A stretch of DNA of 64,000 bases, taken from positions 1,366,501-1,430,500 of the forward strand of contig NC_091947.1 of assembly GCF_041260155.1 (NCBI RefSeq). Direction: 5' to 3'. Source of the stretch: Ptychodera flava. Its lineage: Eukaryota; Hemichordata; Enteropneusta; Ptychoderidae. Each line of letters starts with the position of its first letter. Within the stretch, counting starts at the first letter, position 1. This document shows, piece after piece, positions 321-46,200 of this stretch. Made by a program: the position numbers and the translations under genes. Below the pieces are notes generated by a model, which searched no databases, was not told where the DNA came from, and saw nothing but the letters and a program-made list of their open reading frames with translations.

Positions 321-373
321 CTGCATTGATGACGTCAGGCCAAATACCTTTCATGTTACCATCAAGTTCATCG
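321..373 (-). CDS. SBP gene 1, exon 4
   Basis: Acceptor TTTAAAACGCAG, donor GTATGG, 53 nt, phase 2 in and 1 out. It encodes DELDGNMKGIWPDVINA, paralogous to 21201-21253. Confidence 0.72.
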
Positions 374-3300
374 CTGCGTTTTAAAGTAAAATAAAATAAT
401 ATTTAATGCATCCATCCATGCATGGAAGGAGGGTCCCATTCATAAGTTATTCCCTTGAATATAATTTGAAAAATCATTGAATAAATTCGTATTAATTGGC
501 ACAAAAGTTTTAAATTGATTCATTCGGTGCAAAGAACGACCCCTGAGTATGATCCACATATCAATGCTATTCAAGGATAGAAAATCTCCTACCCTGCTAA
601 AAATGCCACCCCAAATAAATATTTTCGAGGTTAATGAGCAAGGTCGCCTCTTGCATTTACACTCCCCGTGTCAATTGTTCCATTGTGCGTCATGATTCTT
701 GAATATGCTATCAACAAAGCATGCGAACGCCAGAAATTAAATTTGTGTACGTAACTGCGAAGTATTTGTAAAAGAATACTTACGCATAATACAAAGAACA
801 GTTGCAAAGAGAGTCAACCATAAATGTGTAGATTCGATCGTCTTGCTCTTTCTTAAGTCCGTCCATTATTGTACTCTGCAAGGTATTTGTCGTTTGATGT
901 AACATCAACAAATTTAGTATCAAATCTTCGCGGTTTCGTAATCCTCGGATGGCAGATAACAGATTACCACCAAAGCCATGCTGAAAATATGTAAGAGATC
1001 TGCTTTCAAAAAATGTTTTAATATTTATTTTATAATTTAAAAACATCAATAAAATTTTGATTTTAAAAACCCATTTAAAGTTTTTTTATGCATCTTATTT
1101 AACATCAGCGTTCTTTTCTGTCTCTCTAGAAAGATAATAAGCATACACAGACATCATTTGCGGGAAAAGTTAATACTTCAAGCTTTTCTTTTATTGTGTA
1201 CACGATGAGTATCTATTTCATGGCTAAATGTGAAACCTCTCTCTATGCAATGGGGTCGTTTATTGTCAGACATGCAAGTAAAATTATAAGCATTTTGTAA
1301 ACACAAACTGTCATTATCTCTTTGCTTTGAAGAGCAATAATGGCCAGGACACTTTTCCGAGCACAAAAAATAATCAAAGGGTCATTCCTACAATGCTTTA
1401 CAGTAACGAAGGTGGGACATGATTATTTGCCTTTATAAAAAAAAGAACAAGTTCACATTGCTTTGGTAAATAATAAATTCTCTAATAAAAACCCAAAGAG
1501 TTAGATGATCATATGTAGAAATAAATGTGTCCATGTCTGGTTATAAAAACTACATGAAAGTGAAACATCACTTCAAATCTAACATATTCCTAATACAAGT
1601 TTACAATTGTTATTTGAGAACATCAAGGTAGAATGCGCCTCGGGGACAGATGTTTGGACTCTCAAACTTTACAATTCTTTTCTGATCTACCTCTTTTTTG
1701 GGGCTCATTTTAAAGGTCTTGCACTGAGAAAAAGTTTCATCCTCTAAGGCTTTTCGGCAATCAAGAAATGTGTGTTCCCTGAGGTTAACAGAAGGATTAA
1801 GCCATTTTGAATTTCGAATACCTTCAAATGTTGCGTTATTTGTTTTGGTTTCTGCCGGCTTCACCGACTTGGACTCCTTGCACAGTAATGGCGGCGAGAC
1901 GGACTCTGTAAACAGTGACGTAAAGCAAATACAAAATGATTGACAGCCCTCCCCGGTTATTCTGGCCGATAAGGAGAAAGCATCCACTTCGACATCGAGT
2001 ACGTTACACGCTTAGCAAATATGGTATAAAGTTAGCATATCGACCGCATTCTAAAACTGATCGGTTGAGCATCGCAAATCATGATATATTACTTGAGAAA
2101 AGTTGTCGAGAATTATATTCTGGTAAAATATGTGTACGTCTGTGCACCAACTCGCAGCGGTAAATCATTGTTCTGATTTCCATCGCTTTGGGCAAAATTG
2201 TACTGATTAAAATCTCCCCACATATTGCTCTAAAGAAGGAGCAAGCCTCAAAGTTGAACGGAAGGAAACTAAAAGTCGTATACATCAGCTATCAGAAAGT
2301 TGATATGCCCTGCGTAGAGGAATGCTGGTTCAATTTCGTTTTCGGGGTTCGTGCTTAGCCCTTCGAACGATGCTGTGTTTTATAGGCGTTGTACGGTCTC
2401 CCACGGGGAACACAGCACCGTACGCAGAGCTAAGGTCGTGCTGACTTTGATGGGAGTTATCGCACTCGACATTTTATCAATAACGCCATGTGCGTTTTAT
2501 GCACATTCCTTAGGGGTTCGAAAGGTAGGGCAAGATATCCAAGTATGTGATTCCGGGAGAAACTCCCCTTTATATCGTTCACCTCACTCATCACGTTCAC
2601 CCCACTCACGCGTTTTACATGAAAACAACACAAATCATCGCACTCACCCCGTCAAACATTCATAAACCACAGACTTGAACCAAGTCTAACGTGATCTCTA
2701 TTTTTCATTCTTGACTTAGTAAGAGTCTGGTTGAAAGTTTATCTAAAGAAACTTTGCTCAAAAGTTTAAGTCGTTTCAATTTCCAGGCGCTTACAACCTT
2801 AATGGAAAGGATTAAGTTATGAAAATACTTTGGATTAGAAAACATGACAGGGAGTGAAAAATGAGGCAAAACGTGACATTACTCTATTGAAACCATAATG
2901 GTGAATAAGGTTTAAGGCATAAAATCACGCAAAGTCTAAAAGGACTATATATCTGCCACTGATTTAAAATTCAAATCTGCCATTGACAATCGATCAAATG
3001 ACGTAACTCAGAGATAATATGCATTCTAAACTTTAACTCTTCTAAATACTGAACGTCTTGAAAAGGATGGTAATGATTTGGAAAAAAATAACAACAAAGG
3101 CACCTGCTGAGTAGAGCATCTTCATTTAACCGGAGAGAAAAGTATCACCCTAATGGATGTGCAGGACAGACTCTTTAAAAGTATGCACAAAAGTCAACAC
3201 TGAAGTCTTTATTCTTTCTTCTGATCTCACATGATGTGAGAGAAAAGTTTTTGCCTAACCTGAATGATGTAACGACTGGCTATTGCGCGACCCGTCGAAA

Positions 3301-6300
3301 TTGGCACCCTCTCAGACATCATGGCCATTAGAGCTGTATTTGGCACATCATGGTTCATGAGCATCGCCTCCAGTTTTTCTGGTATGTTATGATGTAAAGG
3401 CAGAGGATTTCCAGGGTAGCCGTACTCATTGTTTTCCATCTTAGCCAGCACGAAATCTGGGGACAAGGTAACAGTTAAGCTCAGGTTAGTGAAATCCAAG
3501 TGACAATATGCAATAAGCTATGTTAACTCTGATTGTCGAGCCATTATATAAGGTATTCAGTTGTTTGCGTCATATAAACTTTAATCTCAACAGGTATGCA
3601 CTACAAAAAGACATGCCGTTTATGCAGAACCGTGTTTTGTACTTTAGCAATGGGAATTCTCCCATACGCCACATCTTTTAGTGGCGTCTTACAATCAGTA
3701 TGAAAGGAAAAGTTGTAAAAGCAAAATATCCTTCAATTGCGAGATCGAGGGACAGAAACGCAAACAGTGGATAAGTCAACCACTTCTTACTATAGTAAAT
3801 CTCAGACATTGTGTATAAACATCCATTCGACTTTTGTTCAGGTTTGAGCCCGCGTGTTGAAGAAACTTTGTGGTATGTTTAAAAGTTCCACCGCTCTTGG
3901 AACATTTTTTATTCTTTAACGTTTTCTCTTTATTAGTATAACATTTTCTCTTCACTGACATTAAGAAACTAAAAAGGATATTAGGAACGTCTTCTTGATT
4001 TATCGTGTGCTCAAACTGATATCATATGGAGCTATATTTCCTTTACTATTGTATGCAATTCACGTTTTTTAAAAGTTCGGGAGCTTATCATTAGAGAAAA
4101 GAATTCATTTTGAGTGCCTGAAAGCTAATATGCAACCACGTTACCAACGTCTGAAAATAAAGGAACATATACTCAAGGACATAGTTCAACGTAAGCACAC
4201 CAATTTATCCCATGATACAATCAAATACGGCCACCTGGCGGCCATTTGTACAATGTTCTCATTTCGAGAGCTGTTACTGGAACATATACCTGGAATAATT
4301 TTTCCGATTTGTTTCAAAGTTTGTGCAAGGAACATTACCTCATTTGTACCTCATTTTGTGATTGTCATTTTGTAGAGTGAGACGTGTTCCACTCTTATGC
4401 TCGCACAACACACCTCTCAGGACAATTGTCCTTCAAAGATATTTTCTCACTACTTTTGATCAATATGCATTCAAAATGCAGTGCACATGTGTCTTCGTTG
4501 TCTCAATTGTGACGGCCCTGTACACCGATCTCCCTCAGATGGTGCCCTTCTATAGCTAACCCTGGCTTTTAGTGGTGATGCCAATTTTAGATGTCGATCA
4601 TACCATACACAATACGTTAAAGGGAAAATAGTTGTTACGTCTGATATTTTTACCGATTTATGTTATCATCTACCCTAAACCTTTAATCAAGGTATAATAG
4701 CTGTAACTTTGATGATATTTTTATAATATTTGTTTGAGAATTTGCACGTCGGCATGTCAGCAAAAGCATTTACCATGCACAACCAACAAATGTGCTGTGT
4801 TTTTGATGATAAGTGAATTCTAAGCTGTACTAGAATCAAGTTGTCAACAAGTGCATTGGACAGGACAAACCTACAGTGCTGACAAGTCGAACAACAAGTA
4901 GAAGCAGACAAGGAAACAATACGACGATAGGCTACAAATAGAACATAAATATCGGATAATTCATTTCATTAACCTCGCGGTAGATTTAAATTTACCAGCA
5001 ATTCACTTTTTAGTATAGGCAACGTAATAGATTTTATCGACGTTTGCCAATTTTTAATACTTTTGCTTTTAGTTTGAGAAGAAAGCTAAAAGCATTTGGT
5101 TTTTGATTATATGTTTTTTTCCTGGTTAAGGTAGAACGCACCTCGGGGACAGACATTCGGACTCCCAAACTTTTACAATTCTCTTCTGATATACCACTTG
5201 TTGGGGTTCATTTTCAAGCTATTGGTGTAAGAAAACTTTTCACCGGCTTAGTTTTTTCGCAGTTCGAAAATTTTTATTTTTCTCCATAGAGTTAACACAG
5301 GGATGGCGGCCATTTTGAATTTCAAATATCGGTAAATCTTGAGTTATTTGTGTCTCTAGTACCAAAATTTGCACGGTGACCCCCAATTTTTATTCTTGAT
5401 TTTGAAAGAGAACTGTTGAATGATTCCTTAAGGAAAGTTTGAGCAAAATTTTAAATCTTTCACTTTCGAGGCGCATACTACCTTGAGTGCCATTTGCTTT
5501 AACTAGCTTTCTTTTCCTGTAGGCCTAATGACATTTTATATGTTTTACTATAATCTTGCTGTTAGTGCGGATGTATGATAGTTTTAGACTGTATCATATA
5601 TGTGTTGAAGTTCTAAATAAACAAATGAATAAATATATCAAACGCTGTATCCACTGGAACTTTAACTCAAACCCTAACGAACTGCATATTGTATCTTCCT
5701 ATGGCAGGTTGTTCAATAAGGTTTCCGTCATATATAGCCGGACACAATAGCTTAAAGAGATAAGCCTGGACTCTACCAATGTTGATTCAGTGTTTATAGA
5801 CCTAGATATCCTCGGTACATCAATTCCTTGTTCTTCAAGCTTACCAGTGCTGAAGCACTTAAATCTTTAATCATGCAGTCACCTTCCGAAACAATTTACC
5901 TTGACCCCATTCCCACAGCCTTGTTGAAGAAATGCCTAGATATTTACTCCCCTACATAACTTCAACCGTATATCTCTCACTTCCGTCTAGTAAAGCACCT
6001 ACATTTTATAAGCAAGCTGTTATCTCACCATTACCCAAGAATTCTTCGCTTGACAGTGACAATCTAAAACATTATCGTCAAATGTCAAAATCGCCATATC
6101 TTTCTCAGGTCATGGAATAGGTTATCTCTGCTCAAATCAAGACCTGCATAACACCCAACGCGCTAGTGGAATCACAGCCATCTAGCTACAGAAAGTTTAA
6201 CAATACTGCACAACAGTGAGACTGCTCTGCTCAAGTTCATATTATCGGATATCTATCCGTCTCTTGATTCTGGTAACTACGTAATACTCATCTTCTTGAT

Positions 6301-11000: not shown

Positions 11001-13180
11001 AAACATAAATTTTGCTCTTCCAATAACATGGTTTCAAAATAGGGCAGTTAGGTCGGCTGGTTTTCTTTTCCCCAATATTTTTTTCTAAATATGCACTTTT
11101 CAGGGGTTCAGGGCGATCTAACACTTACCACAACATTTCCAGAAAAAGCGTATCATACATATTAAAGGACTAATTACATAAAAGACGTCGACGTCCCAAG
11201 CAAAAATCAAAAATATCAGCTCAGGTGACGAACACGTGATTTTACGGGGGTTTTCTGTCTTTTTGATTCTTTCGTGTTTACGTTGCTAAAAAGTTTAGGG
11301 TCGCAGTCTAAAAAATAGGGTAGGTCGGGTTATCGGAACAGGACAACTTATTTCTTTTGCCTATCCTATCCATCTGCAGGCCACCGAGACTTTGGTCGGC
11401 CTCTGTAAAGGATGCTTCATAGTAACTTAAATCATCATCAAACTTTAAATTTTAAAAACTTTCAATAACGTCGCCCTCGAGTTCTATATTTTTTTCCTCC
11501 TTCAGTCGTATTTTTCTCTGTATTACTCCACTAATAATGCCGTACAGCAATGACAATGCCGTAAAATCGATAATTTTATCAAGCTTCAGCAGCCGAAAAC
11601 CATATGGAATTAAGGCAGAAAGGACCCATCATGTAGTTACTCATAACCCAAGCCAGGCACAGATAGGTGAGACACTACACATACGGTGTCCAAAGTTAGA
11701 GAGTGGAGTCGTTTATGTTCCAGATACCTTCGATCTGGTATTTGACCTTATAGTATCGGTCACCCAAATAACCGAGTAGTTCAGAATATCATAAAAATAT
11801 AATCAAGTGCATTGTTTTAGAATTCGAGGGACAGATACTTCTCGATCTTAGTAATCATAATGTTATTGAATGTTATCGTGATCCCTATGAACATAAAAAG
11901 TAGAGATGAAACGTGATTCTGAAGAGTATTCAGAATGAAAATCTCCGAATCTAAGAAGTGGTGCGGCCGATGCAGATAATAACATCGTTTATGATAGTCT
12001 ACCTCTTGAGGTTTATGATACGAAATATGCCATGCACTTGACTCATCCCTTCATCAAAGGTCATAGGGTTACTTATCCATCAGCGCTCGGCAGCAACATC
12101 GAGTGGGAAATTACCCTTGTATCTCTGTCTCCTAGTTAATTGTCAGTGAAAATCTCCCTTCAGCAGGTTATACAAACTGACGAATATTCAATTTGAATAT
12201 TAAAATGGTTGTAGACTTCATGACACTACTGACACTGGAAATGCATTCAACATTTGAATTTACAGTTGAGAAATACCTAAAAAAACAACATTTTCCGACG
12301 TTGAAATATTTCAGGGCTAAAAGCAAAACTAAGAAATCATTCTTGATATTAAAACAAATGCAAAACCAACTGGAACGTTCCAATGCCTGCTCAGAGGATC
12401 AACCAAAACCAACCTTTAAGGTACCCATCAAAGGCAAAATTCTTAGATACTCGCCTACATGCAATACCCAATCGATTTCAAGAAAAAATGTAGCATTCTT
12501 CACAAGCAAATTAATAGACAGAGAATGCACGGCAACATAAACCAAACAGAAACCATACTTAAAACGTAAATAGAAAAAACAAACAAACAAACATTCACAA
12601 CATAAAATGACTTGATCTTCACAACAACATTTAGGCTCAACACATATCAAAACAAAGGATAAAAAAGAAAGCCCGTCAAAATATTTGGAAGAACTTGATA
12701 AGTGGGAAGCAATAAAAACCCTTTTGCCGAAACAACCAACAAGAGCCTACAATAAACAACAAGTGTATAAATTAAAGCAGCGGCATTGAGGGTTCAAATG
12801 AATCCGAACAAATGCCAACGCCGTATCTGTGATGAATTATCTGAAAATTAGGTAAAACGTCACCACAAGGAACCTTAATACAAAATGTCAAAGCAATAGG
12901 ACGAGTAGATTCTAAGGAGAAGATTTTTGACCTGTTTTTTAGCAAAAATGGCGAAATTGCCAAAAAAGAGTCGTGGATAGATCAGCACAATTCAATACGT
13001 CTTGAAGGAATTATCTCCAGAAACCTGTATACCAAATTTCAAAACAAAGCACCTCGCAATTTTAGAAAACATATTTCTTTGAAAAACGACATATTTCCCA
13101 AAATATAGACCTAAATACGCATATTTCATCACGATTTCGTCAATATGGCCAAGTTTTTTGAAAATTAGGTTTTTATACAA
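11000..13180. other. Unique centre of the fold-back element
   Basis: The longest plus-strand ORF is 12193-12540 (115 codons, lysine-rich, beginning MNIKMVVDF). Another covers 11537-11779. Neither shows a DDE, helicase or reverse-transcriptase motif, and codon use is not clearly coding. If this was an autonomous element its enzyme has decayed or was never here. Confidence 0.4.
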
Positions 13181-14652
13181 AATTATTAAATTTTGTTACA
13201 AATAGGGTTGATTGTTACAAATAGGGTTGATTGTTACAAATAGGGTTGACACGTCAACCCTATTTGTAACAATCAACCCAATTTGTAACAAAAGTTAACC
13301 CCATATAGGTTTAGTATGATTTCGGTCAGAAAACAAGATTTTTAACATTTTTGACCGAAAATGGTGAAAATTGCCCCGAAACAAACCTTTGGCATGTATC
13401 TGCACAACTCGATTATATCTTACGAGTAGGCCTCTTATACTAGGCAACCTGCACAACGAAAGTTAATCTAACGAGCATTTTCGGAAAAAAAATGATTTCG
13501 ACAAGGAAAAAATAAAAATTGCCCCAAATCATACTAATATGTATATGTCATCAAGATTTCATCAAATACGGCCAAGTTTTTTTTGAAAATTAGGTTTTGT
13601 TTCAAGTTGGTTAATTTTTGTTACAAATAGGCTTGATTGTTACAAATAGGGTTGATTGTTACAAATAGGGTTGACAGGTCAACCCTATTTGTAACAATCA
13701 ACCCAATTTGTAACAAAAGTTAACCCAATATAGGTTTAGTATGATTTCGGTCAGAAAACAAGATTTTTAACATTTTTGACCGAAATTGGTGAAAATTGCC
13801 CCGAAACAAACCTATCTGCACAACTCGATTATATCTTACGAGTAGGCCTCTTATACTAGGCAACCTGCACAACGAAAGTTAATCTAACGAGCATTTTCGG
13901 AAAAAATGAGTTTCGACAAGGAAAAAATAAAAATTGCCCAAAACATACTAATATGTACATTTCATCAAGATTTCATCAAATACGGCCAAGTTTTGTAGAA
14001 AATTAGGTTAGTTTCAAGTTGGTTAAATTTTGTTACAAATAGGGTTGATTGTTACAAATAGGGTTGACACGTCAACCCTATTTGTAACAATCAACCCAAT
14101 TTGTAACAAAAGTTAACCCCATATAGGTTTAGTATGATTTCGGTCAGAAAACAAGATTTTTAACATTTTTGACCGAAAATGGTGAAAATTGCCCCAAAAC
14201 AAACCTTTGGCATGTATCTGCACGACTTGATTATATCTTACGAGTAGGCTCTTATCCCTAGGAACCTGCACAACGAAATTTATCTCACGAGCATTTTCGG
14301 AAAAATGAGTTTCAACAAGGAAAACCAAGAAAATTGCCCCCGAACATACTAATATGTATATTTCATCAAGATTTCATCAAATACGGCCAAGTTTCTTTGA
14401 AATTTAGGTTTTGTTACAAATAGGGTTGATTGTTACAATAGGGTTGACACTTGTCACCCCTATTTGTAACAATCAACCAATTTGTAACAAAAGCAGTTTC
14501 GGAAAATGAGTTTTGACCAGAAAAAAAAAGAAAATTGCCCTCAAACATACAAATATGCATATTTTATTAATATTTCAACATATACGGCAAAGTTTTTTTG
14601 AAAATTAAATTTGTTACAAATAGGGTTGATTGTTACAAATAGGGGTGATACA
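13180..14652 (-). repeat. Right arm of the fold-back element
   Basis: Inverted match of the left arm. It carries 'ATTTCATCAAATACGGCCAA' at about 13556, 13970 and 14370, with the same palindromic spacers. Confidence 0.8.
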
Positions 14653-14657
14653 CAGGG

Positions 14658-16329
14658 AAGTTTCGAAAGTGCAACAAAACGTTAATGAAAGAAGCACATA
14701 TTCTGGCAGTTATAATACAAAGGAGTTTACAGAAAAACGATGCTCGAAAAGAAACGAAACGTTTTGACATTTTAAAAATATATTATCAGTTTTAATCAGT
14801 TTTGGTATCTCGGCATCCCTACAGTGTAACCGTTTGTCTTTTGTAGCTACGAGCCATTATGCTTCTCATAATGCGTAAACATCTCTTTTAAACAGACATA
14901 TTTATGTTGGTATACATACTTATTAATTCCAAATAACAATAGCAGGAATCAATGCATATGTCCTGGTGTTACGATTTGTGACTCCCTTTCGAGCGTTTCG
15001 TTTCTAAAACGAAATGTGAACTCCCTCCACAACTTCTTTTGCGTTGGAAGTCGATAAAAATGCACACATTTGCTCTTCGACAAGTTTCTATGAATTTGGA
15101 ACACATCAATTGAATGGCATATATTCAGTGTGTACAGGGGTCATGAAAATGGCCGATTACTTACTAGCTGACATGAACTGCAAAATGGCTTTTAATTGCC
15201 CAAGTCTTGTTCTGACCTATATGACCAGTAAAATTCATGGAAATTGTGCTGGCCCTGGTTGCTATTTAAAAGATCTCTCCGGAACAAGGTTCCTCAATTC
15301 TTTGTAAGATAAAAGCAGTGATAGTCAACTCTCTACTGTAGAGTGTATACGTTTTTCCAATCAATAATAAGACATTCTCACCGTAAGATTTTCGATCGAT
15401 TAAATTGGGCGTTTTAGTACCTGCCCAGCTGGTATAATTGACTTGTGGATGTGGCATATAGTTCAGGATGGGGACGTTTGCGTCCTTATATGCTTTTGAA
15501 AATGAAGGCGTTCATTACTTGAATTAGTCGGCAATCAGATATGGTGTCAAAAGAAGTTTTATGAGCAAAAGCCGATAACTAAATCGAAAAATTAGTGAAA
15601 CCATCGCATACGGTATTGCATTAGGACACCTCGTGGCGCCAGTCTATGGTTACTCTGCATGCCAAATCACTGAACCTTAATCTAACATGGCCGACATACG
15701 TGGCAACACGGTATGAACAACAGAAACATGGATCCACCCAGACATCATGACAAGATGCAGATATATGAGTCTGTAGATATGCAAATCACACCCTTAACTT
15801 CCCCCTTTAAGTAACCCTATGTAGGTCGATGGTCCATATCAGTCATGGGTCATCATGATTGGTAAACAAAGACCCGGCCAACATATTGAATCAAGGAGAT
15901 AACACTTATCGACGTCGGTAATAAACAAACATCCTAAGTTCAGTTTCCGGATTACATATATCGATCCCATTAAAATAGTGTGGCCCTGTTCGTCTAATTA
16001 TTGAGTGCATTATCAAACGCGCTTCAGATTTGTGAATAACATTTAGAACTAGCTTCGATGATTTTGATCCCATTAAATTGGAATTATGAAAGTGAATATA
16101 CTAATTTGAAAGCAAAAGTCAAATGGGTTAAGAGAAAATATATTTTGAAAAGGAAAAAGTGTTTCAATGTATTTTAACAATTTTAATGTAACAACTCATA
16201 ATTTGAGCAAATCGCCAATTAAAAAACACTAGAACCTATATGACATACTTGAAAGCCGTATGACAGCTGTTTTCTGGAACAGATATTGCTTTGAAAAAAT
16301 GAAAATTGACTTGAAAAATTACACGTGCA
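14658..16329. other. Intergenic stretch between fold-back element and tandem repeat
   Basis: An 87-codon plus-strand ORF (15044-15307) without a motif or convincing splice sites. Otherwise AT-rich unique DNA. Confidence 0.4.
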
Positions 16330-16816
16330 AAATTCATCATAATTTTAACAAACTTAGTAGAAATCATACATATCTAACTGATAAAAACAAACCAATGTTC
16401 CATGCATTTTGATAAGTGGCTGCAGCAAAATCATCATAATTTTAACAAACTTAGTAGAAATCATACATATCTAACTGATAAAAACAAACCAATGTTCAAT
16501 GCATTTTGATAAGTGGCTGCCAGCAAATTCATCATAATTTTAAGAAACTTAGTAGAAATCATGCATATCTAACTGATAAAAACAAACCAATGTTCAATGC
16601 ATTTTGATAAGTGGCTGCAGCAAAATTCATCATAATTTTAACAAACTTAGTAGAAATCATACATATCTAACTGATAAAAACAAACCAATGTTCAATGCAT
16701 TTTGATAAGTGGCTGCAGCAAAATTCATCATAATTTTAACAAACTCAGTAGAAATCATACATATCTAACTGATAAAAACAAACCAATGTTCAATGCATTT
16801 TGATAAGTGGCTGCAG
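16330..16816. repeat. Tandem repeat, about five units of 97-98 bp
   Basis: Unit starts near 16331, 16428, 16526, 16625 and 16722. Each runs from 'TTCATCATAATTTTAACAAA' to 'TTTTGATAAGTGGCTGCAG'. Units differ by single bases. Confidence 0.9.
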
Positions 16817-17485: not shown

Positions 17486-17517
17486 TTACAGTACACACTC
17501 GACCGGTCCTCTTGCTC
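17486..17517 (-). CDS. SBP gene 2, exon 9 (C-terminal tail and stop)
   Basis: 32 nt after an ACATTTTAG acceptor. Joined in phase 1 it completes IEHG-ARGPVECVL and TAA. The total coding length then divides by three. Confidence 0.6.
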
Positions 17518-20500
17518 CTAAAATGTGAAGAAAAAATGGACAATAAATAAACGTTGAGTATGAAATCCGGAAGCTGGTAAATTAAGTTAACGTTTAAACA
17601 ATAACGCGGTAAATGAAAAAATATTATAAATTTAACAAAAATTTGCAAAAAGTCGGGGGCCAGTAAACGAGCTCTTTTCTTGGTTCCAAACATTTACAAA
17701 CTTACCATGTTCGATCTGTGCCTTTCTGCATATTTCAGCGTATTTACCAGTCGCCTTTAGCCTCCTAAGGGCAGCGTTGAACCATTCCAACACTCCACTG
17801 TCCTTCCGAACTCCTAAGTGTACACCATCAGTACAACGCATGACGTCACCAATTGGTTCCAATCCAGGGGGTGTGCCGCTGATCATACCAGCCTGTTCAA
17901 GACCATCTTCTTTGCTGGGCCATAGCAGTGCAAAGGCCGCATCGATCTGATGATAAATTTGATGGAGTTAAGCTATTAAAATTTCAAAATATTAAATTTC
18001 TCAATTATCGTGGTCACTTCAGTATCATTTACAAACTTCAGTCATAGTTTTGTTCGGTGTACACAAAGTATTTCGCCTAATATACCATGTCTCCTTCTCA
18101 AAAGGTTTAAGGGAGATGTACTGTATTTAAGGTGGAACGCGCCTCGGGGACAGATGTTCGGACTCTCAAGTTTCTACAATTCTTTTCTGATCTACCACTT
18201 GTGGGGGGCTCATTTTAAAGCTCTTGGAGAGAGTAAAATTTTTACCGTCTTAGTTTTTCGAAAATCCAATATTTAATTTTTCCCCAAAGAGTTAACACAA
18301 GGATGGCGGCCATTTTGAATTTGAAACATAGCAAAATTTTGGGCAATTTGTTTTGCTAGTTCCAAACCTTGCAAAGTGACCATCGGTTTTTGTTGTTGAT
18401 TTTGTAAGAGAATGGTTAAAAGTTTCATTTAGGAAAGTCGAGGCGCATACTGCCTTACAAAAAATTATACCACCTAGAATACAAAATTGCTCTGAAGAAA
18501 GATAAACTATAGGAGAGATTGCTATAAATTGATAAGAATACTTAAAACTTTTCGACAACTACTGCAATCCTTTATTACTGTTACATGTAAAAGAAGTCAG
18601 TGCATATTGCATTGTCTTTATGGTGTATTTAGTCAATTCATATATTGTCCTAGGTGATATCATATGCAGGATCATAACTTCTGAAACTTGTTAAATGTGA
18701 TCACTGTGTATGCAAAAGATCCCCCAATATCATTCGTACCACAACATTGTCACTGACTTATTACCAATTATGTATTCTTTTACTTAGAGGACAAAACCAA
18801 TTCCTATTGGTGGATGGCGCTTTCGGTTTTCAAGATTCAAAATTATCCATACTTCAGTATTCGCCCAAGCAATACTATAGGTCTTCATTTGGGGATTGTG
18901 ATCAGACTACAATAATCTACCTCGTTATTCTCGAAGCCACCAGAAAGGTCCGGAGGTACATCAAACATTTGAATTTGATGTAAAGGAAGAGTGGCCGCCC
19001 CCATGACCTTATTGTCGACGAGGCAGCGTCGATTACTATACCAACCATTTATAAACCCTGTTAAAAGGAAAAATTAAGTAATTCTGTTCATCTCAAAGTT
19101 AGAAAAAATCATCTGTCGAGGTAACTCACAAAATTTTTTCAATCTTACGACATATATTTTCAGATGTCAAGAATGAAGTACATTTATACAAAAGTATTCC
19201 TGCGTCGTATTGCATATACATATCCCGCAGATTGAATGCAAAATAATTGTTGCAAATGAAAAAGACATAACCTGTGATTATCCTCCAAACTCCATCAAAC
19301 CATCTGACAATAGCACAGCGTACAGTATCTCAGGTGCCTTTGTCACACCAGTAAATTAAAGCAGTGTAAAGTTTTTGATCGACACCCTTCGGCTGAAATT
19401 ACAAAAGTAAATCCACTGTGAAATTTATAAAGAAGCACATGCCTACAGTTTTGCCACGAATGTCGTTTGGATTGAAATTTCCAGGATTTCCTACTGGAAC
19501 AAAAAAACGTGATTCTCCGCCGTACTTCATCCACGTATCTGACAACGCCATAGTGTGCACTATCTCACTTGTCTTCGTCACACCACAACCATCAAAGTGT
19601 CTAGACAGTATGCCTGGCAAAACATTAATACAATTATAAGCAGTGGGTACGAATAAAGTATACTGATCAACTTGATAAAGGCTAATGAGCATTCTCTCGT
19701 ATGTTTATGTTACTATAAATCATATTTGATATCGTGCAAGCAAGTGACGTCATTAAGAGAGAGTGTTAATTAACATAGCATAATATGATATAATGTAATA
19801 TAATATAACATAACATAACATAACATAATATAATATAATACAATACAATACAATAAAATATAATACAATATAATATAATATAATATAATATAATATAATA
19901 TAATATAATATAATATAATACTCTAAGTGACATGGTAGTGTTTATGTGAAGTACTTTTGATTGATATTAATGAAACACATTCGCTTATTGAAAAGTTTTT
20001 TTATGCATTAATGTTTTAAGGTAGTTTTAAAGTCTTACCAGTGCGTTTTGCACGGCAAATAAATACCAGAATGGATATCATGAAAGTGCCTTACAAAGAG
20101 CTTTATAAAGGTTATAGATTTGAATGAAAATTTTGATTTGTATCTATTCCTTTTTTGAATTTCTGATTGGAGTTGGTAGTTCTCAAAACAATCCGGCAAC
20201 TTCCATATTTAATGTTTATCGAATGATTGTTCATTACACAAGTCTGTGGCAGTTTGTGCACAGCACGCGCATACATCGAAGTAATACCACGTTCGGGCCA
20301 GTGGGTTTTTACCATTGAAATACAGTTTGTGCATTGCCATCCATATAGTCTTATGTTAGGTTGCTGCAAAACAAGGAATGTGATCGTTTATAAACACATT
20401 TGTATGGTCAGATGCACGATCGTTTCGTAGATTACAAATAAAAGGCTTTGCTATATTTACCTCTTCCCGCAGCCTCGAAATCAGTAGAAGTACCACTATT

Positions 20501-23500
20501 GAGGCACATTTCGTAGGGCATATGTTGTGCAATGCATTTCTTGCCAGCTTCCTTGCAGACTTATTGCAAAAGACCAAACAATAACGTTAAGGTAATGACT
20601 GTATATTATGAAAACATGAATGAAAAATATGGATACCATATATGAATATTATGTGTGACACCAATATTGTACAGGTGTAAAAGTGAACTAGTACGTTTTT
20701 CATTTACTGTAAGTTTAGTGTCTGTTTTAATGAGTATCGTCTTTCTTCTCTTCAGCAGTTTACCAATTTCTATCACATCTTGTACTTGTGATATTAAAAC
20801 ATGTCCAGAAGTCACGAAAATCAGTGAAGCAAACTTCCTTCATTGTGCACACCTTGCCAGCTAGCTACAACCAAGTTGAAGTATGTCACTAATGTATTGG
20901 TGTGATGATTTTAAGACGTTCTTTTTGTGATGTCGTTCGGTACTCACATAAACTAGGATCAATTATGCGATCATCTGCAAAGTGAACAACACGCAAACTG
21001 CCAACATGTTTAAACAGGGTAGTTTAAAATCAAGATGGGTATTTCTCATATTGGACAAGGGGGCTTTTCTCTTCCTGTGGTGAGAGACAATATTAAAATT
21101 ACATTTTCACTATTTCTGTAATAAGGTTTAAACAGACACATGATATTACAGCATTGTATTTACATGACCTAAATCAAAGCCAATAACATTCTCATATTAC
21201 CTTCTAGGACTAAATCCTTAAAGAAACCTTTAGTCTCATGTTCATGTTCGTCCCTGTGTTGAAAAAAAGAGAAACTATTGCTCAATATATAGAGTGATAC
21301 AATTCAATGACAACTTCATCATACTGTCAACTATTGGTTACAACGGCACTAACTCAAATGAAAACTTAATGTCATAGATCTAACATGAAGTTCATTAGCA
21401 AAAGGATAATTGACAAATATTTCAACCAGAACTGTATGGATGACAAAGAATCGGAAGACATAAATGCCCAACTGTAATTCCTGTATTAAGATACATGTAC
21501 TTTCAGGGGCTGATTATTGGTAAAATATTAAAAATTGTCCTTATATCATCTTACAAATTCCTGACGGTTGAGACCAGAATATTACTAAGGGGCAGGAATA
21601 AAACAAAGTGGTGTTATCTGAAGTGGTTATGTGACAAATATTAAGTTAATCTGAAGTCTTGAGTAAGACAAATCATAGATGATACGATACACATAAAACA
21701 GCGAACAGTTGCAATCAGCGTCATCAACAAATGTGTATGTCCTGTCATCTGCTTGTTCCTTAAGTCTGTCTAGTATTGTGTTTCCCATTGTTTTCGCCAT
21801 TTGCTGAAACATCAAGAGTGATAGTATCAAATCTTCTCGGTTGTGCAAGTCATGGATTATAGAAGTCAGTCGAGCATCAAAACCATGCTAAGGGATAAAA
21901 GAAAGGAACATTTCATTGAGTTCTACAAATATTTTGAGGAGGTTTTGTGATTACAGTTCTTCTCCGAAAATATTATTTTATTACATGAACATATTTAGGT
22001 GATGACATTCAGAACCAACTCATTAGTCTGGTGCCGAAACCCTGATTTTTGGTCGAACCCAAAAATTTCGGCCCCACAATGGTTCTCGGTGGTTTCTGTA
22101 TCTTCAAAGCCTACTGAATCAGGATCTGCATGATGCCACCCTGGCATCCTTGGGCATTTTAATATATTCAAGATGGCCACCAAGATGGTCGCCAAAATAT
22201 GTAAATGGTAATGTCTTAGCTCTATGAAATGTTATCAAAGTGATTTTGGTGTCATTTGCCAGGTAAACAGGACCAAGAAATTCATTTCTTTCATTTCCCA
22301 ACATGTGCAACTCTTAATTTGCATAAAAATCCAAGATGGCTGCCAAAATCACCTCCAAAACAGGTAAATGCCATATCTCAGCTCCATGAGAAGCCGTTGG
22401 AGTCATTGTGGTCTCCTTTGCCAGGTAAATGGGGTAAATGAGACCACAATATAACAAAAGATACCTACTTTTGACCCATAAAACATGCCGAAAGACACCA
22501 AAATCAGTGGCATAGTGTATTGAGATATGACTCCTTACACACTGAAACAGGTATTTGGATTTTTATGAAAAGTTTATGCAAATTAAGGGTTGTACATGTT
22601 AGCCAATGAAAGATATGAATTGCTTGCAAAGGAGACCAAAATGACTCCAACAGCTTCTCATTGAGCTGAGATATAATATTTTACCTGTTTTTTGATGTCG
22701 TTTTGGCAGCCATCTTGGTTTTTTATGCAAATTAAGGGTTGAACATATCAGGCAATGAAAGATATGAGTTCCTTAACCCCATTTACCTGGCAAAGGAGAC
22801 CACAATGACTCCAACGGCTTCTCATGGAGCTGAGATATTGTATTTACCTGTTTTGGAGGTGATTTTGGCAGCCATCTTGGATTTTTATGCAAATTAAGAG
22901 TTGCACATGTTGAGCAATGAAAGAAATGAATTCCTTGGCCCTGTTTACCTGGCAAATGACACCAAAATCACTTTGATAACATTTCATAGAGCTGAGATAT
23001 TACCATTTACATGTTTTGGCAGCCATCTTGGCGGCCATCTTGAATATATTAAAATGCCCAAGGATGCCAGGGTGGCATCATGCAGATCCTGATTCAGTAG
23101 GCTTTGAAGATACAGAAACCACCGAGAACCATTGTGGGGCCGAAATTTTTGGGTTTTGTGTTTCGGCACCAGACTAACATAGCAAGATACGAATCATGTA
23201 ACACCTACTGCTTAATATTAGACTCGAGCATTATCAATGCTATCATCACGTGCCCCATCGTCAATACGCCTTTATTGTGATGTGTTGCTATAGAAATATA
23301 GTTGATAAAATGCTTCAAGTCCTCATTTCACCTGTTACACGAAATCTCACCTGACTGGCATAACGTGAGAGCATTGCGCGGCCTACGGTGACTGGAACTC
23401 GCTTTGAAACCATAGCAAGAAGAAAATTGGATGACCTCACATGGCTGCCAGATATGGCTTTGATTTCATCTTGTAGTTCATAATCTAAAGGTCGATGGTT

Positions 23501-24179
23501 CGCGGGAAGGTGGTCAAGGTCAAAATGTAAACTGTCGGTAAACACAAACCCTACAATAAAAACAAGATTAAACATAAATCTTGCCGTATAGCCTATGTCA
23601 TGACGAAATACCAACATTACTCAGATCACGTTTGTTCACCGACAAAATACGTTCTGCTCATCTGATATGTCAATTACAACGTATTTGTCCGGTAATAAGT
23701 ATTTTCAAATCACTTTCAAATTTGAAACCGTACTCTGACTCTGTTAAATCAACCACAATGACCTTTTTTAACATCAGGGTATCAGTGGGTGATTCTGACC
23801 TCCATAACAAGAGATTGAAATTTGAAAAATTGACAATATCGAGTCTACGTTACTAAATTTCATTTCCAGTAATAATAGCAATTAGGACTTCACGGCTGTA
23901 TCGACATCTATATCATGTATAAACCTGGATAAGAGATATTTTTATTGATAGAAAGGGATATTCCTGAAAGAAAGAAAACAACGCATGTTTGTACTCGATA
24001 TGGTAGTTGTTATCGTCTTTAGACAGTGTCTGCACAAATGGGGCCATGTCGCTTACATCTTGCGCTACAATAAGAACAATAATTAATACATCAACACAGG
24101 ACCAACAACATCTGAGGAACATACCTTTGCTTGCAAGACAAAAGAAGATTACAAGGACAAAATACCACTTCATGTTCAT
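17486..24179 (-). CDS. Secreted protein with a bacterial-type solute-binding (SBP family 3) domain, complete nine-exon gene
   Basis: Coding exons, in order of translation: 24125-24179, 23351-23550, 21691-21887, 21201-21253, 20461-20559, 19443-19613, 18921-19057, 17706-17946 and 17486-17517. They total 1185 nt, 394 residues plus stop, and every junction phase agrees. Residues 1-18 are a signal peptide with no later membrane segment, so the product should be extracellular. Residues 19-150 are a novel, probably helical region. Residues 151-390 match the periplasmic-binding fold: lobe I start GFFKDLVLEVCKEAGKKC, the 'GVTKTSE..ALSDTWM' strand, the hinge motif RGKTVGF, IDAAFALLWP, and the C-terminal helix GVLEWFNAALRRL with GKYAEICRK. 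About ten cysteines suggest disulfides. The arginine after T-x-E that holds the ligand carboxylate in bacterial amino-acid binders is not seen; isoleucine stands there. Unlike ionotropic glutamate receptors there is no pore between the lobes. The ligand and role are unknown. A tandem paralogue lies at 321-7760. The fold call is firm; the family name is open. Confidence 0.82.
17706..17946 (-). CDS. SBP gene 2, exon 8 (lobe II and C-terminal helices)
   Basis: 241 nt, acceptor TTATCATCAG, donor GTAAGTTTG, phase 0 in and 1 out. It encodes IDAAFALLWPSKED, then HLGVRKDSGVLEWFNAAL and TGKYAEICRK. This is the best-conserved segment: 'G-[IV]-A-[VF]-R-K-x...L...[VF]-N-x-A-L...L-x-x-x-G-x-[YW]-x-x-I' is the family-3 C-terminal signature. 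Confidence 0.85.
18129..18457 (+). mobile_element. 'AAGGTGG' MITE, copy 3, in intron 7 of SBP gene 2
   Basis: Starts AAGGTGGAACGCGCCTCGGG, ends CGAGGCGCATACTGCCTTA, about 329 bp, with a short loss before the right end. Confidence 0.75.
18921..19057 (-). CDS. SBP gene 2, exon 7 (lobe II)
   Basis: 137 nt, acceptor TTTTAACAG, donor GTAGAT, phase 1 in and 0 out. It encodes FINGWYSNRRCLV and ends DLSGGFENNE, so the join reads NNE-IDAAF, matching the 'G-x-[IV]-DA' motif of solute-binding proteins. Confidence 0.75.
19278..19349 (-). pseudogene. Decayed duplicate of part of SBP exon 6, in intron 6
   Basis: Reads GVTKAPEILYAVLLSDGLM, EFGG and then TAA. It lines up residue for residue with GVTKTSE...LSDTWMKYGGE of the exon about 160 bases upstream in the gene, with stop replacing the glutamate. 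Similarity fades on both sides. It is a relic of an internal exon duplication in the same orientation. Confidence 0.7.
19443..19613 (-). CDS. SBP gene 2, exon 6 (ligand-cleft strand and hinge)
   Basis: 171 nt, phase 1 in and out, acceptor TTTTGCCAG. It encodes 'DGCGVTKTSE...ALSDTWM', equivalent to the bacterial 'D-x-x-x-x-x-x-T-x-E-R...F-S-x-P-Y' strand, then FVPVGN and NDIRGKTVG, the hinge that precedes lobe II. The only phase-consistent donor is GCATGT after TGTAG, so the next intron appears to be GC-AG. Confidence 0.75.
19785..19921. repeat. TAATA-type AT microsatellite
   Basis: ATAAT, ATACA and ATAAC pentamers in blocks, in intron 5 of SBP gene 2. Confidence 0.9.
20461..20559 (-). CDS. 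SBP gene 2, exon 5 (lobe I)
   Basis: 99 nt, acceptor TTGCAATAAG, donor GTAAAT, phase 1 in and out. It encodes VCKEAGKKC followed by a PYEMCLNSG segment. This is the usual 'A-x-x-x-G-x-x-V' helix-strand unit that follows the first helix in periplasmic binding proteins. Confidence 0.75.
21201..21253 (-). CDS. SBP gene 2, exon 4 (start of solute-binding domain)
   Basis: 53 nt, acceptor CAACACAG, donor GTAATA, phase 2 in and 1 out. It encodes DEHEHETKGFFKDLVLE. GFFKDL matches the 'GF-x-x-DL' first helix of family-3 binding proteins. Paralogue 1 has a 53-nt exon at 321-373 with matching phases. Confidence 0.75.
21691..21887 (-). CDS. SBP gene 2, exon 3 (helical region, CNCSLFY)
   Basis: Acceptor CCCTTAG, donor GTATCG, phase 0 in and 2 out, 197 nt. 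It begins HGFDARL and contains NREDLIL. It aligns end to end with the equally long exon at 784-980, including the closing CNCSL-[FY]-Y. Its helical character is judged from composition only. Confidence 0.82.
22023..23177. mobile_element. Palindromic (fold-back) MITE in intron 2 of SBP gene 2
   Basis: The left end TTAGTCTGGTGCCGAAAC is mirrored by the right end ending CACCAGACTAA. The arms stay similar for about 560 bp to a centre near 22600, so nearly the whole 1155 bp folds back. The arms contain the repeated phrases 'CAAGATGG-[CT]-[TG]-GCCAAAAT' and 'CTCCAACGGCTTCTCATGGA'. ORFs in it are mirror images of one another and are not genes. Confidence 0.8.
23351..23550 (-). CDS. SBP gene 2, exon 2 (N-terminal novel region)
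   Basis: Acceptor TTATTGTAG, donor GTGAGAT, phase 1 in and 0 out. It shares the ending pattern 'RVP-[IV]-[ST]-x-GRA-x-x-SRY-x-x-Q' with the 197-nt exon at 3260-3456, differing in length by exactly one codon. I know no domain with this sequence. Confidence 0.8.
24125..24179 (-). CDS. SBP gene 2, exon 1 (signal peptide)
   Basis: ATG at 24179 opens MNMKWYFVLVIFFCLASK, a basic then hydrophobic signal sequence. The exon ends in phase 1 at a GTATGT donor. A TTTTAG acceptor about 25 bases upstream of the ATG suggests a spliced 5' UTR. Two ATGs further upstream at 24230-24233 are in frame but would spoil the signal peptide. Paralogue 1 has the same short exon in the same phase. Confidence 0.75.
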
Positions 24180-31200: not shown

Positions 31201-34200
31201 TCGATGTTTTGAGGGGCTAAAAATTGTACACTGTCAAGGTAAAGTTATCAGCAACTAAGATGGTCTAATCATACTATCTGTCTGACATGCAAATTTCCTT
31301 TGTCACGAACATTAAAAAAATCAATACCCTTTCTTTTGCCAACACAGATGCTACTTATTCCCTTAGTTTCCTTGAAAATATTGTGTATGGCTGTCAAAAA
31401 TCTATGTCAACAAAACAACAAAATTGCTATCTCCTCCGCGGAAAAGGGGTTATTGTTCTCATTATTCACAGTGAGAAATCGGAAAATTATGATTGTCAAA
31501 AGTATGTTGCCAAAATTTTGAAATATGGATCGAGCTGTTCTGTGTACAGAAGAAATTTGTTTCAGTTCAGTGAGAGATCTTCGTGTGTACGGATCATGGA
31601 GAATTGTGGGTAGCCTCACTTACTGTGTGTATGTTACTTTTCAGTTGACGTGATGAAAATGAAATTTATTTTAGGTAGTTCATGCCTCGAAAATGAAGAT
31701 TTAAACATCTGCTCAAACTTTCCTCAAGTAAACTCTCCATTCTCTTTCAATATCAAGAATAAAGAAAGGGGGTCAGTGTTCTTTCTAAGATTTTCTGGTA
31801 GAGTGGTGGCTAATTTGCATAACAATTAATGTAGTTGTTCTGGTAATGAATTTCTGTTCTTTACCAAAATTAAAGAGTGGTGGCCACCACTAAATTGCTC
31901 TGGCCTTGGAAGAACACTAAGGGTCCAGAGAACAAATTACCCAATATTTACCAATATTTGAAATTCAAAATGGCTGCCATCCTTGTGTTATCTCTGTGGG
32001 GAAATCAAAATTCCCAATTTTCACAAAACTAAGCTAATGAACACTGTCTTTACCCCATAAGCTTCAAAATGAGACTCCATAAGTGGTATTATGTAAAGTA
32101 AAAGTTTGAGATTCCAAATGTCTGTTCCCGAGGCACATTCTACTTTAAAACAAGAAGGTACACGTAAGATTCATATATGGTGATTTGTAATTTATAGGTG
32201 TAATAAAGGAATTTAAAGGTTTAGTGGTTTCAGGGTATCATATGGATATGGCCATGCAGAAAGATTCTCATTATTTTGTCGGTAATTATTTCTATAGGTA
32301 CACAGGTGTAAATGGATTGAAAGGCTGTGTGAGTCATGTGAACCAAGCTCATCTATCTAGAAAGTGGGTGCCAAATAGTCGGCTGAGGGGGAAGAATTCG
32401 CCATGCTTTGATGTTGTCACGTACAATATCCTCTCGGATTTCTTTATGGATCCAGACATTGGTCACAATCCCAACTATCCTAAAGAAGACTTGAGCAGAT
32501 CAAAACGAGAGGGACAGCTGTTGATGGAACTGGAAAATAACAAGGACACTGATGTCATTTGTCTGCAAGAGGTACAATTGCAATTCATTCTAAATTTAAA
32601 TATGTAATCTAAAGCCATTGTGTCATTATAGAGCAGATCCCTTACGTTAATAGCTGTTAAGCAATAATCAGTGTTCATTCTAGTATGTAAAATCAGGGGG
32701 CTACTGTGGGCCCCTACTTCGGTCCCAAGGGGCCATTTTAGAAAATCGGGGGCCATCATTAATACACATGTAAAACCCTTAAATATTTATGCAGAAAATA
32801 CTATAGTCTATCAAATCAAGAAAAGAAGAATACAAGAGATCAGGCCTCCTGTAACCAACCAAGCCCCATTGTAAAGTTGTCCCCCATATATACGCAACAG
32901 GCCCAACCATAGCTCTGCATGGCAGGGCTGTGTGTTACCTGTGTTATACGGGAGGCCATATAACACCGGTAACACACAGCCCTGCCATGCAGAGCTAGTC
33001 CAACAATGGCGACAGCAAACTAACCGTTTGGTTTGATTTGTTCGCGTAACTTATGTGATGAATTATTGATATGTCGGACTTGAACAACTGTACAAATTGG
33101 TAAGGACTGTGATTTTGACTGTGGAGACAATCATGATCAAAGCTTTGAGCACCAGTAGGATTTTTCTGAGAGTGGCCCCGATTTGCATGCATGGACAATT
33201 CAATTTAATTTAAGGGACTGCCTAATCTTTTTCTAAAACAAGGGTTCATCAAATACATGTATACTCGTGTTAAAAATCCGAGTGACGACAGCCTTTCGCC
33301 ATTAAGCAGCGGCTAGTGCTGTTGTTTACATTCATCTGCCATACCACATGGCTTCAATACACCCTTGCCCTTACATATACATCAGTCATCAGTCCTTTCT
33401 TACCAGCTTCTTATGCACCACCGTATATGCTCTACTGGGTATTGAATTACAAAGGTCGATGGGTAACTGAATCATTTACTTGTCACACATGACTGAGGTG
33501 ATGACCTTCGGGGTGCCCATCTTCACTACGCCCATGTATGAACTACGTGAACTCTGCGTGATCGACCCATTTATATAATGTTGCACCCTTAGTGGCGCAT
33601 CAAATGTTGAAATGAGTGCCATTTGAGATTTTATTGTGCGAATTGCGTAATGGCACGTCCTAGAATTAACTCTGAATAATGTACCCTTTCCCAGCCCATA
33701 CTGGATGAAAGCAAACTTTGCATGATATAATGTACAAGGCAAAGCTACCAAGTACATTATGGAGTGCAAAATGTGCTTGAGTCCATTAGGCCAAAGTAAT
33801 TAAATTCTTTGTTTTGCGTCCCCACCTGCTTAGGTTTTTAAGGTTTTCATGAAAAACACACACAGTGTATTGAATAGGAAATTTTAGGACATAACCGCTT
33901 AGCTTTTCTGAACTGAAATTTTGTTACAAATTTTCATTTGCTGCAATCAAATTACATTGTGTTAATTTTCTTGTGTGTGTTTTTCAGCCGCTCAGACGCG
34001 TACCTTTTCCCATTTAGAGTGGACGCAAATCAAAGAATTTAATTACTTTGGCCTTATCAGCTGGGTTGGGTATATTATTGCTATTATTTTATAATTTTGA
34101 TGATGCCAGTGAATTTGTTTATGTGGAAAACATCTGGGACCACAATGCTGGATAATCAGATTCATTATCAGTAATAATCTGAGGGTACATGTATGACGTC

Positions 34201-43200: not shown

Positions 43201-46200
43201 TGTGATGTTGTGTAATTATTGGATTTTTCTTTGTAAGCCCTATTAAGTCATTATGAACCCTGTTCATCTGATCTTGTGTGAAATTTTACATTCTGAACAT
43301 TTCAGAAATGTGTTTCATCACTATTGTACAACCAGACAAAGGTTCTGTTTTGAGCCACAATGTATGCTGGGTATTGAGAAACCTAGCATACCTAGCATTG
43401 AGGTATTGAAAAACTGCAATGCATAGGGAAAGTTTGTATCGCTTTTCACTGCACAGTTCTAATATTGTGTTCTCTGATTCCTTGGACAGATTTCAACTGC
43501 CATCAGGGAGCTGGTAGAGTACGCAGGCAGTGATAGCCAATCTTACATTCTATGTGGCGACTTCAACCAGGAACCTAAGATGCCTGGATACAAAGTCACT
43601 CAGAACGGTCAGTTGGATCCCTGTGAGAAAGAAGAGCTTCGAAAATATCCCAAAGTATCTGTCAATGTAAACCAGGTGAGTTTGAGTGGAGAGAATTGAA
43701 GGAGAAGCCATAACAAAGTATCTTGAGTAGCTGACTAAATGCTGATTGATTCGGCCATGTCAAGAATTCATGGTAGGTTTTTGACACAGTGAATTTGTGA
43801 ATATAAATACAAGACCTGAACATGTTGGGTGAAGGGTCAATATTGCCTGCTTTTGTGTTTTGAGATAGCTGTCATGTTCATGAACTTGAACCCTGCTTAA
43901 TAAGCAGTTGACCAGTGAAGCAGATTAAGGTATAACTATGCAATGATTTGTAAAGAAAGCGGACTAGTCTGAAGTGTAGTTAGGGTGGAAGGGGTTGTCT
44001 TATGGCAAGGCAATGTTCAAAATGGAAATCCTGTTTATTTGTTTACCTCCAGGATATCAATCTCATTGATGTTGTTCCAAAATGTTTTGAACATTCTGCT
44101 GCAAGTATTCGGAGCAGTTACAAAGAAATAATGGTATGTATATCATCACAGTGTAACAAGCTACTTATTCATTGTCTATTCATATTATATGGATAGACAA
44201 TCAATAAATAGCTTGGTACAATGACATCACTGTTTGCTAATTTGCATAGTTACACTGTTTCCTTATCTGAGACATGGAGCTAGAAACGGAAGGAGTCACA
44301 TCTCCTTTGTGACGCACTGTTATGATACATACCGCCGTTTGCTTTTACGGTTTGTTATACGCGTCAGTTTCCAGCTTTGCGAAATCCAATCAACATAAAT
44401 TAAACTTAATAAGCCAACCTTTAGCGGCATTTGGCATTTTCCAACCTGTTCTTTGCAACATCTAGGTATTGCCACAGCGTTGTTTACAAGCCTGTGAAAG
44501 TGTGCCTTGGCAGCTAGCAGCTATAAAAAGCGTCTACATTACTCTAAATTTCAAACATGACTTTGTTCTCTGAAGATGGACAAAACTAAATTGAAGAAAG
44601 TCTTCTTGAAGATAAGAAATTTTGCGTGTGCAAAGACAAGGAAAGAGAAGAAATGACATTAAGTGTAATCTATGAGACAGATAGGATTTGAACCAGGATA
44701 GCGCACAATCAGTGATTCCAAAAGAGTGTTCAAGTCGATGAAGGAGAATTTCAAGATCTAAAGTGTCAAACGCAGCAGAGAGGTCTAACAAAGTCAAAAT
44801 GCTAATTTCACCCCTGTCTAGTGCAGTGAGGAGATCGTTAACAATTCTAAGGAGGGCTGTTTCTGTGCTATGATGTGGTCTATAGGCTGACTGAAGTGGA
44901 TTCAACAATTTGTTTGAAATAAGATGGTCATTTAACTGCATGAGAATAATTCGTTCTATGATTTTCGAAAGGAAGTGCAAATTTGAGACGGGTCGATAGT
45001 TCTTTAAATCATCTGGGTCAAGAGATGGTTTCTTAAACAAGGGGTTTGCAAGAGCAGTTTTATAGACGTCTGGGAAAATACCTGAAGTGAGAGAATTTTA
45101 ATGACTTTGGTGATAGTGGGTAATGAGATGTCTAAATATTCAACTAAGAGACTGGTAGGCATAACCATCGAGGTCACAACTTTTGGCAGGAGACCTTAGT
45201 ATGATGCGTTTCACTACGTCATCAGAAACTTGTTTGAAATGACCGAGGTTTTCTCCGTGAAAGCAAGGTTCAGTACACATGGGAGGGGAGAATCAGTACG
45301 ATCAAGGTTTGCTGTGATCGTTTTAATTTTGCCATCAAAGTATTCATCAGAAAGTTTAAATACTGAAGTTTTTTGGAATACTACAGTGAATGGGGGCACA
45401 ATGTGGCAAGCAATGGAAAGTGAAAGTTGAAGATATGATGAATTGGAGCCTAGGAAAAGACAAGAAGAGTTATAACTTACCTAATACTCAACGGACGCGT
45501 ACACATCCGGTATCAATCTGACCGTATCGTCAAGCTCTATCAAAAGCAAGCTTCTGTGCATGTATATTGACCTCTATATACTCAAGTGAGCAAGCAAATC
45601 TTACTTGCATCAAAGGTTAGAGTCGACACCCATCTCCGTATGCTGAAACCACTCATGGTATGTAACGGTGTAAAAGGACATTAGAACAAAAACGATAACA
45701 AGATTAACACGTCCTTATTACAAAGGAAGTTAAGCTTGTTAACAGCGCTGTTACCGTTTCTAGCTCCATGCCTGAGACAAAGAGATTTTCAAGGTACCAT
45801 GAAACTCTGCTAAAACTTCAGGAAGGCTAAAAGATCTATTGTGCTAAACTCCCATCATATGATAACAGAAACAAAACTACCCAATAGTTTGGATGTATAT
45901 GCTGATTCGCAGTTTTGTTGCAAGGAATGTGTACAATAAACCCACACTTATGTACTCACGGTCCCTCCTCTTTTGTGGAGGGACCGTGATGTACTAAATA
46001 ACACTTTAACACATAGATTCTTCTTCAAATTTTAAGTGATACTATGCCACGATCTAACACAGATTTATTTCAGCAGAAATGTCTGTAATGATCTCTTTGC
46101 ATTGATCCAAAATTAAGCAGGAGAAGTGAGTAAGAAATCTGCTTACAGGGGAAGTTCACCAAGGCTAATTTTTACACATGTGGTAGCTTTCCGATCATTT

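Follow-up and report, generated by a model that had tools for sequence, protein, structure and literature searches.

We analysed a window of 64,000 nucleotides from the acorn worm Ptychodera flava (contig NC_091947.1, positions 1,366,501 to 1,430,500 of the forward strand) and found that its minus strand carries a real spliced gene of this animal, here called gene A, whose product contains a domain of the bacterial family-3 solute-binding protein (SBP) type. Comparison of the protein family to which gene A belongs with bacterial binders indicates that the pocket of this domain has been rebuilt away from the charged contacts used to hold amino acids, which is the new finding here. The explanation that we favor, at about even confidence, is that gene A encodes a clamshell binder that is secreted and has been remodelled to take a ligand that is not a free amino acid.

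Structure of gene A

Gene A consists of nine exons running from 24179 down to 17486, with all eight junctions in frame. The joined reading frame is intact over 394 codons and closes with a TAA stop at 17486-17488. Acceptors are AG in all eight introns, while donors are GT in seven and GC in one (after the exon at 19443-19613). The public P. flava protein P0001 (383 residues; predicted 'uncharacterized protein', isoform X2) is a product of gene A that also uses the GC-donor junction. The exons are as follows:

24125..24179, minus strand: exon 1, carrying the start codon and a hydrophobic stretch that resembles a signal, ending in phase 1; present in P0001
23351..23550, minus strand: exon 2, N-terminal region; from the join and the comparison with P0001
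21691..21887, minus strand: exon 3, helices preceding the SBP domain and their CNCSLFY end; holds the alternative acceptor of P0001
21201..21253, minus strand: exon 4, first helix of the SBP domain; from the join and the PF00497 match
20461..20559, minus strand: exon 5, contains the second Cys of a C-x6-C pair
19443..19613, minus strand: exon 6, loop that holds Arg77 in the bacterial protein LAO, and GNPGNF motif; followed by the GC donor
18921..19057, minus strand: exon 7, begins within lobe 2 at the G-W-Y-S loop, whose Trp occupies the LAO Ser120 position
17706..17946, minus strand: exon 8, IDAAF strand and C-terminal helices
17486..17517, minus strand: exon 9, final residues GARGPVECVL and stop

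The initial annotation had proposed nine phase-consistent exons encoding 394 residues, and P0001 bears this out save for 28 residues and the start. Residues 1-85 and 114-394 are identical letter for letter. Residues 86-113, in the N-terminal helical region, are skipped in P0001, which uses an alternative in-frame acceptor within exon 3 (21691-21887); its start lies 17 residues upstream, within the first exon of gene A. A related protein, P0005, lacks an SBP exon that P0013 retains, and with the P0001 isoform this shows that splicing varies within the family. In place of RNA-seq reads, the exon joins are supported by the public gene model and by conservation across the family. The P. flava genome paper describes gene models built with RNA-seq from 16 stages together with Iso-seq (PMC11175523); the database model P0001 may stem from a different pipeline.

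Two candidate segments were rejected. A 27-nt exon at 20948-20974 is phase-compatible, but with it the PF00497 score drops to 20.2 bits from 27.8, and it is absent from P0001. Just after exon 1 lies a reading frame (~23928-24065, judged by eye) that fails to connect with exon 2 in phase at the donor noted and is also absent from P0001. Intron 2 houses a foldback element of ~1.1 kb (22056-23155), with two 386-nt arms that are 96% complementary and lie 328 nt apart.

Domain content and predicted fold

A PF00497 profile search, which the initial annotation had suggested, returned a match above the cut-off at residues 150-379 of the gene A product (E = 2.3e-6; 27.8 bits against a cut-off of 26.4). 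The same cut-off was passed by 15 of the 16 family proteins scanned. The N-terminus is a hydrophobic, signal-like stretch, and no further membrane span is apparent, the highest 19-residue hydropathy mean beyond residue 25 being 1.16. On these two grounds the gene A product is probably secreted and soluble. The proposal of a C-terminal SBP-family-3 fold with no pore stands. No ion-channel Pfam family was found in the gene A product at E up to 1.

AlphaFold2, supplied with an alignment of 19 of the 23 family proteins (all except P0005, P0006, P0010 and P0012) and six bacterial rows, predicted a two-lobed type-II periplasmic-binding fold for the paralog P0019. A stretch of ~110 residues, mostly helical, separates the signal from the SBP domain; no match to it was found, in line with the initial annotation. 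Its helices are weak in the P0019 model (block mean pLDDT 51-71 for residues 61-130 and 32-45 for residues 21-60); by eye, the P0022 protein of another acorn worm, Glandiceps talaboti, keeps the second half of the region recognisably.

Eight Cys columns in the SBP domain are retained in nearly all family rows covering them, and five rows (P0009, P0011, P0014, P0015 and P0022) lack both Cys of the CNC motif. In the family profile alignment, the C-x6-C pair that follows the first helix lines up with two Cys of LAO, which form a disulfide there. None of the six bacterial rows aligned has both Cys of this pair.

These comparisons bear on whether gene A might instead encode the ligand core of a glutamate receptor with no pore, as opposed to a bacterial-type binder. 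We regard this as very improbable: the family profile matched 33 PDB sequences, all of them binders (bacterial-type or reconstructed) and none an animal receptor; the 16 proteins scanned yielded no Pfam receptor-core family at E up to 1; and the C-x6-C pair lines up with its LAO counterpart. Unlike the ligand-binding cores of ionotropic glutamate receptors, the gene A product has no pore or membrane span after its signal-like stretch and no receptor profile match.

The gene A family resembles bacterial LAO/HisJ/Arg-binding proteins (PF00497; TIGR01096) in domain match, predicted fold and the C-x6-C pair after the first helix. Four of five family proteins scanned, the gene A product not being among the five, matched TIGR01096 (the LAO/HisJ kind) at E up to 0.1 and under its cut-off, with a best E of 9.6e-9 and a best score of 35.1 bits against a cut-off of 256.35; in rounded terms, all NCBIfam scores for these five proteins were 35 bits or less against cut-offs of 256 or more. 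Unlike those bacterial proteins, the family lacks the amino-acid-gripping residues, carries an extra helical N-terminal region and is encoded by spliced animal genes. No gene for an ATP-binding cassette (ABC) transporter partner was apparent among nine open reading frames scanned in the window, although no search was aimed at one.

The ligand site departs from that of bacterial amino-acid binders

We compared the ligand site of the same 19 family proteins with that of six bacterial SBPs, using LAO numbering. PDB titles name the LAO mutants D11A, Y14A, D30A, F52A, S69A, S70A, S72A, R77A, Q122A and D161A, in keeping with these residues lining the LAO binding site; among them, Arg77 and Asp161 hold the amino acid (carboxylate and amino group). 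At the Arg77 position, Arg is found in all six bacteria, while all 19 family rows have Ile, Leu, Met or Phe. Two alignments (the family alignment and the profile alignment) place a hydrophobic residue here, and the family alignment contains no conserved Arg in the surrounding loop. The Asp161 position, read five residues past the Asp of the Asp-Ala anchor, is Asp in 6/6 bacteria and Leu, Gln, Ser, Ala or Phe in the 18/18 family rows that are readable. Asp30 is likewise Asp in all six bacteria and replaced in 18 of 18 family rows, and Ser69 falls in a gap in each of the 18 rows covering it. The Ser120 and Gln122 positions are occupied by Trp and Ser, respectively, in 19 of 19 rows. Asp is present at the Asp11 position in two of the six bacteria and in none of 18 family rows, two of which have Glu.

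Because the gripping residues at the Arg77 and Asp161 positions are replaced, it is unlikely that these proteins hold an amino acid in the usual LAO way. Amino-acid binding in the form usual for SBP family 3, the fold named in the initial annotation, is thus not supported, the gripping residues being lost in all readable rows aligned. The conserved lobe-2 Trp and Ser, the substitution of hydrophobic residues for charges, and a rate of nonsynonymous change (dN) below that of synonymous change (dS; see below) suggest instead a site that is kept but different.

Under the explanation that we favor, the gene A product would be soluble and two-lobed (of the Venus-flytrap type), homologous to family-3 SBPs of bacteria, with its own helical region in front; its lobes would presumably shut around a small extracellular ligand. 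A small molecule that is uncharged or aromatic would be a likelier ligand than a free amino acid; it might come from food, from microbes or from the worm itself, paralogs may differ in what they bind, and the protein could serve as an extracellular carrier or sensor. The roles proposed in the initial annotation (scavenger, chemosensory binding protein or effector) are all candidates, whether in feeding, sensing or defence.

Several observations weigh against this explanation. The gene A product clears the PF00497 cut-off by only 1.4 bits and P0004 fails it; 7 of the 23 family clusters have no precomputed Pfam domain, several of these being truncated models. The fold was predicted for P0019 and not for the gene A product, and an earlier AlphaFold2 model of P0003 (11 rows), which was not used for conclusions, had a mean pLDDT of 54.8. 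The Asp11 position varies among the bacterial rows as well. Finally, the binding loop is gapped, such that single-residue shifts are possible, and positions besides Arg77 rest on one alignment.

An alternative is that the rearranged site still binds amino acids, peptides or amines, and that the protein is a secreted nutrient scavenger or carrier. All of the nearest solved relatives bind amino acids or opines, and some members bear the public names 'L-arginine-binding protein-like' or 'lysine/arginine/ornithine-binding periplasmic protein-like', which derive from homology. Loss of the Arg77 and Asp161 equivalents from every readable row, together with the lack of any conserved Arg in the loop, nevertheless makes us consider a scavenger unlikely. 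An enzyme built on the SBP scaffold is the least probable of the alternatives considered. The CDT lineage leads from a binder to an enzyme, and reconstructed ancestral CDT proteins (5tuj, 5t0w) are weak matches to the family profile, but no catalytic motif was recognised in the family alignment, though no systematic search for one was made.

Gene A belongs to a multigene family of acorn worms

Three protein searches assembled a family of 23 clusters. Of these, 22 belong to P. flava and sit on 7 contigs, distinguished by their lengths, and one belongs to G. talaboti; some may be isoforms of one gene, as P0005 and P0013 appear to be. Gene A is therefore one of many acorn worm paralogs and not a lone gene. 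Members were found only in these two species, by searches that were word-seeded, the second of which scored only the 7995 candidates sharing most words, so that members in Saccoglossus, or outside acorn worms, could have been missed. Since Glandiceps belongs to the Spengelidae and Ptychodera to the Ptychoderidae, the family probably predates the split between the two.

A second paralog, gene B, lies at the left edge of the window, which includes only its first part, the rest lying beyond:

3260..3456, minus strand: gene B exon 2, phase 1 to 0
784..980, minus strand: gene B exon 3, phase 0 to 2; 37 of 65 residues identical to gene A
321..373, minus strand: gene B exon 4, phase 2 to 1

Exons 2-4 of gene B share the phase of gene A at all six comparable exon ends, and exons 3 and 4 are equal in length to their gene A counterparts. 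The initial annotation's view that the intron structure is old thus holds within the family. Exon 3 of the two genes differs with a dN of 0.31 and a dS of 0.89, while exon 2 (22/65 residues identical) gives 0.60 and 1.37, respectively. These are short single comparisons, and both favor constraint on the protein.

Divergence of this kind is also relevant to the possibility that the SBP fold serves only as a scaffold, the products being ligand-free secreted recognition or immune proteins that bind a macromolecule or microbe. The loss of classical ligand residues, the several conserved Cys columns and the many paralogs with diverged N-terminal regions, exemplified by exon 2, would fit such a role. 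On the other hand, the invariant Trp and Ser of the lobe-2 ligand loop suggest that the cleft is kept, and no adhesion or immune domain was found in the family proteins scanned against Pfam. We rate a pure scaffold about as low as a nutrient scavenger, and retain a remodelled small-ligand binder as the preferred explanation.

Two further features accompany these genes. A similar dispersed repeat occurs at 18130-18440 and 1627-1830, in different introns of genes A and B (by eye), and the intron after exon 6 of gene A contains a degenerate exon copy:

19272..19352, minus strand: incomplete, decayed copy of gene A exon 6, interrupted by a stop codon (48% identity, E 0.009)

Origin and significance

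The SBP domain is nearest in sequence to bacterial LAO/HisJ-type binders and not to glutamate receptors, as judged by comparing the family profile with PDB sequences; the predicted fold agrees with this kinship but does not decide it. The evidence is strongly against bacterial contamination, because two paralogs share introns and members sit on contigs of up to 63 million bases. Transfer from a bacterium appears the likeliest, and simplest, source of the family.

In a tree of 22 of the 25 alignment rows (P0008, P0013 and P0023 were dropped as broken models), all 16 family rows are grouped on the same side of a branch supported at 100/99; the tree does not resolve where the Glandiceps row branches. 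The branch joining the family to the six bacteria is very long, drawn as 1.58 changes per column on each side of the root, and no donor is named since long branches meet in this tree, as the tool itself warned. Among viral contigs, 71 stretches matched the search pattern and none encodes a relative. Of 139 matching stretches in genome contigs, six are bacterial SBP loci, four of which align over more than 100 residues at 22-29% identity and two over only 27-28 residues at 52-54%. Plasmids yielded 45 matching records, 42 of them from Rhizobium, with 24-30% identity among the 20 matches listed.

Animal odorant-binding proteins and lipocalins are small, secreted, soluble binders encoded by multigene families. 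Their folds differ from that of the gene A family, and any functional resemblance would be by analogy. A fuller scenario, which we put forward only tentatively, is that acorn worms acquired a bacterial amino-acid-binding gene before the Ptychoderidae/Spengelidae split, added a helical region, rebuilt the pocket and multiplied the gene into a Venus-flytrap repertoire that would be a counterpart to odorant-binding proteins.

The best-known animal uses of the clamshell fold of bacterial solute binders are within receptors and in transferrin-like proteins. A free-standing, multiplied and secreted family with a rebuilt pocket would, if confirmed, be a direct example of an animal recruiting a component of bacterial transport as an extracellular binder. 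What is new is the setting of a known domain: its host is unusual, it has been multiplied, its pocket is rebuilt and the N-terminal region before it is peculiar to the family. Already known are public records with no function given: the P. flava and G. talaboti database proteins called 'uncharacterized', 'LAO-binding periplasmic protein-like' or 'L-arginine-binding protein-like' are members of this family, with names derived from homology. As the proteins are small and soluble, their ligands are directly screenable, and if these prove to be environmental or self-made chemicals they would provide an opening onto acorn worm chemical ecology. The family also bears on how animals acquire foreign genes. 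For the GH13_1 amylases of hemichordates, both retention and horizontal transfer are discussed (PMC7003070). Among the papers listed by our literature searches on the family, its domain or gene transfer, none concerns the gene A family; one paper, on gene transfer into fungi, names SBP_bac_3 once (PMC11291939).

Other elements in the window

Elsewhere in the window, a reverse transcriptase fragment lies on the minus strand at 44537-45097 (RVT_1, E 7e-15), and the plus strand has a weak endonuclease/exonuclease/phosphatase-like match at 32191-32604 (E 0.0081, under the Pfam cut-off). A tandem array at 48695-50149 comprises 11.2 copies of a 130-nt unit with 96% matches, and further arrays include one at 13123-14419 (3.1 copies of a 425-nt unit) and one at 16327-16816 (5 copies of a 98-nt unit).

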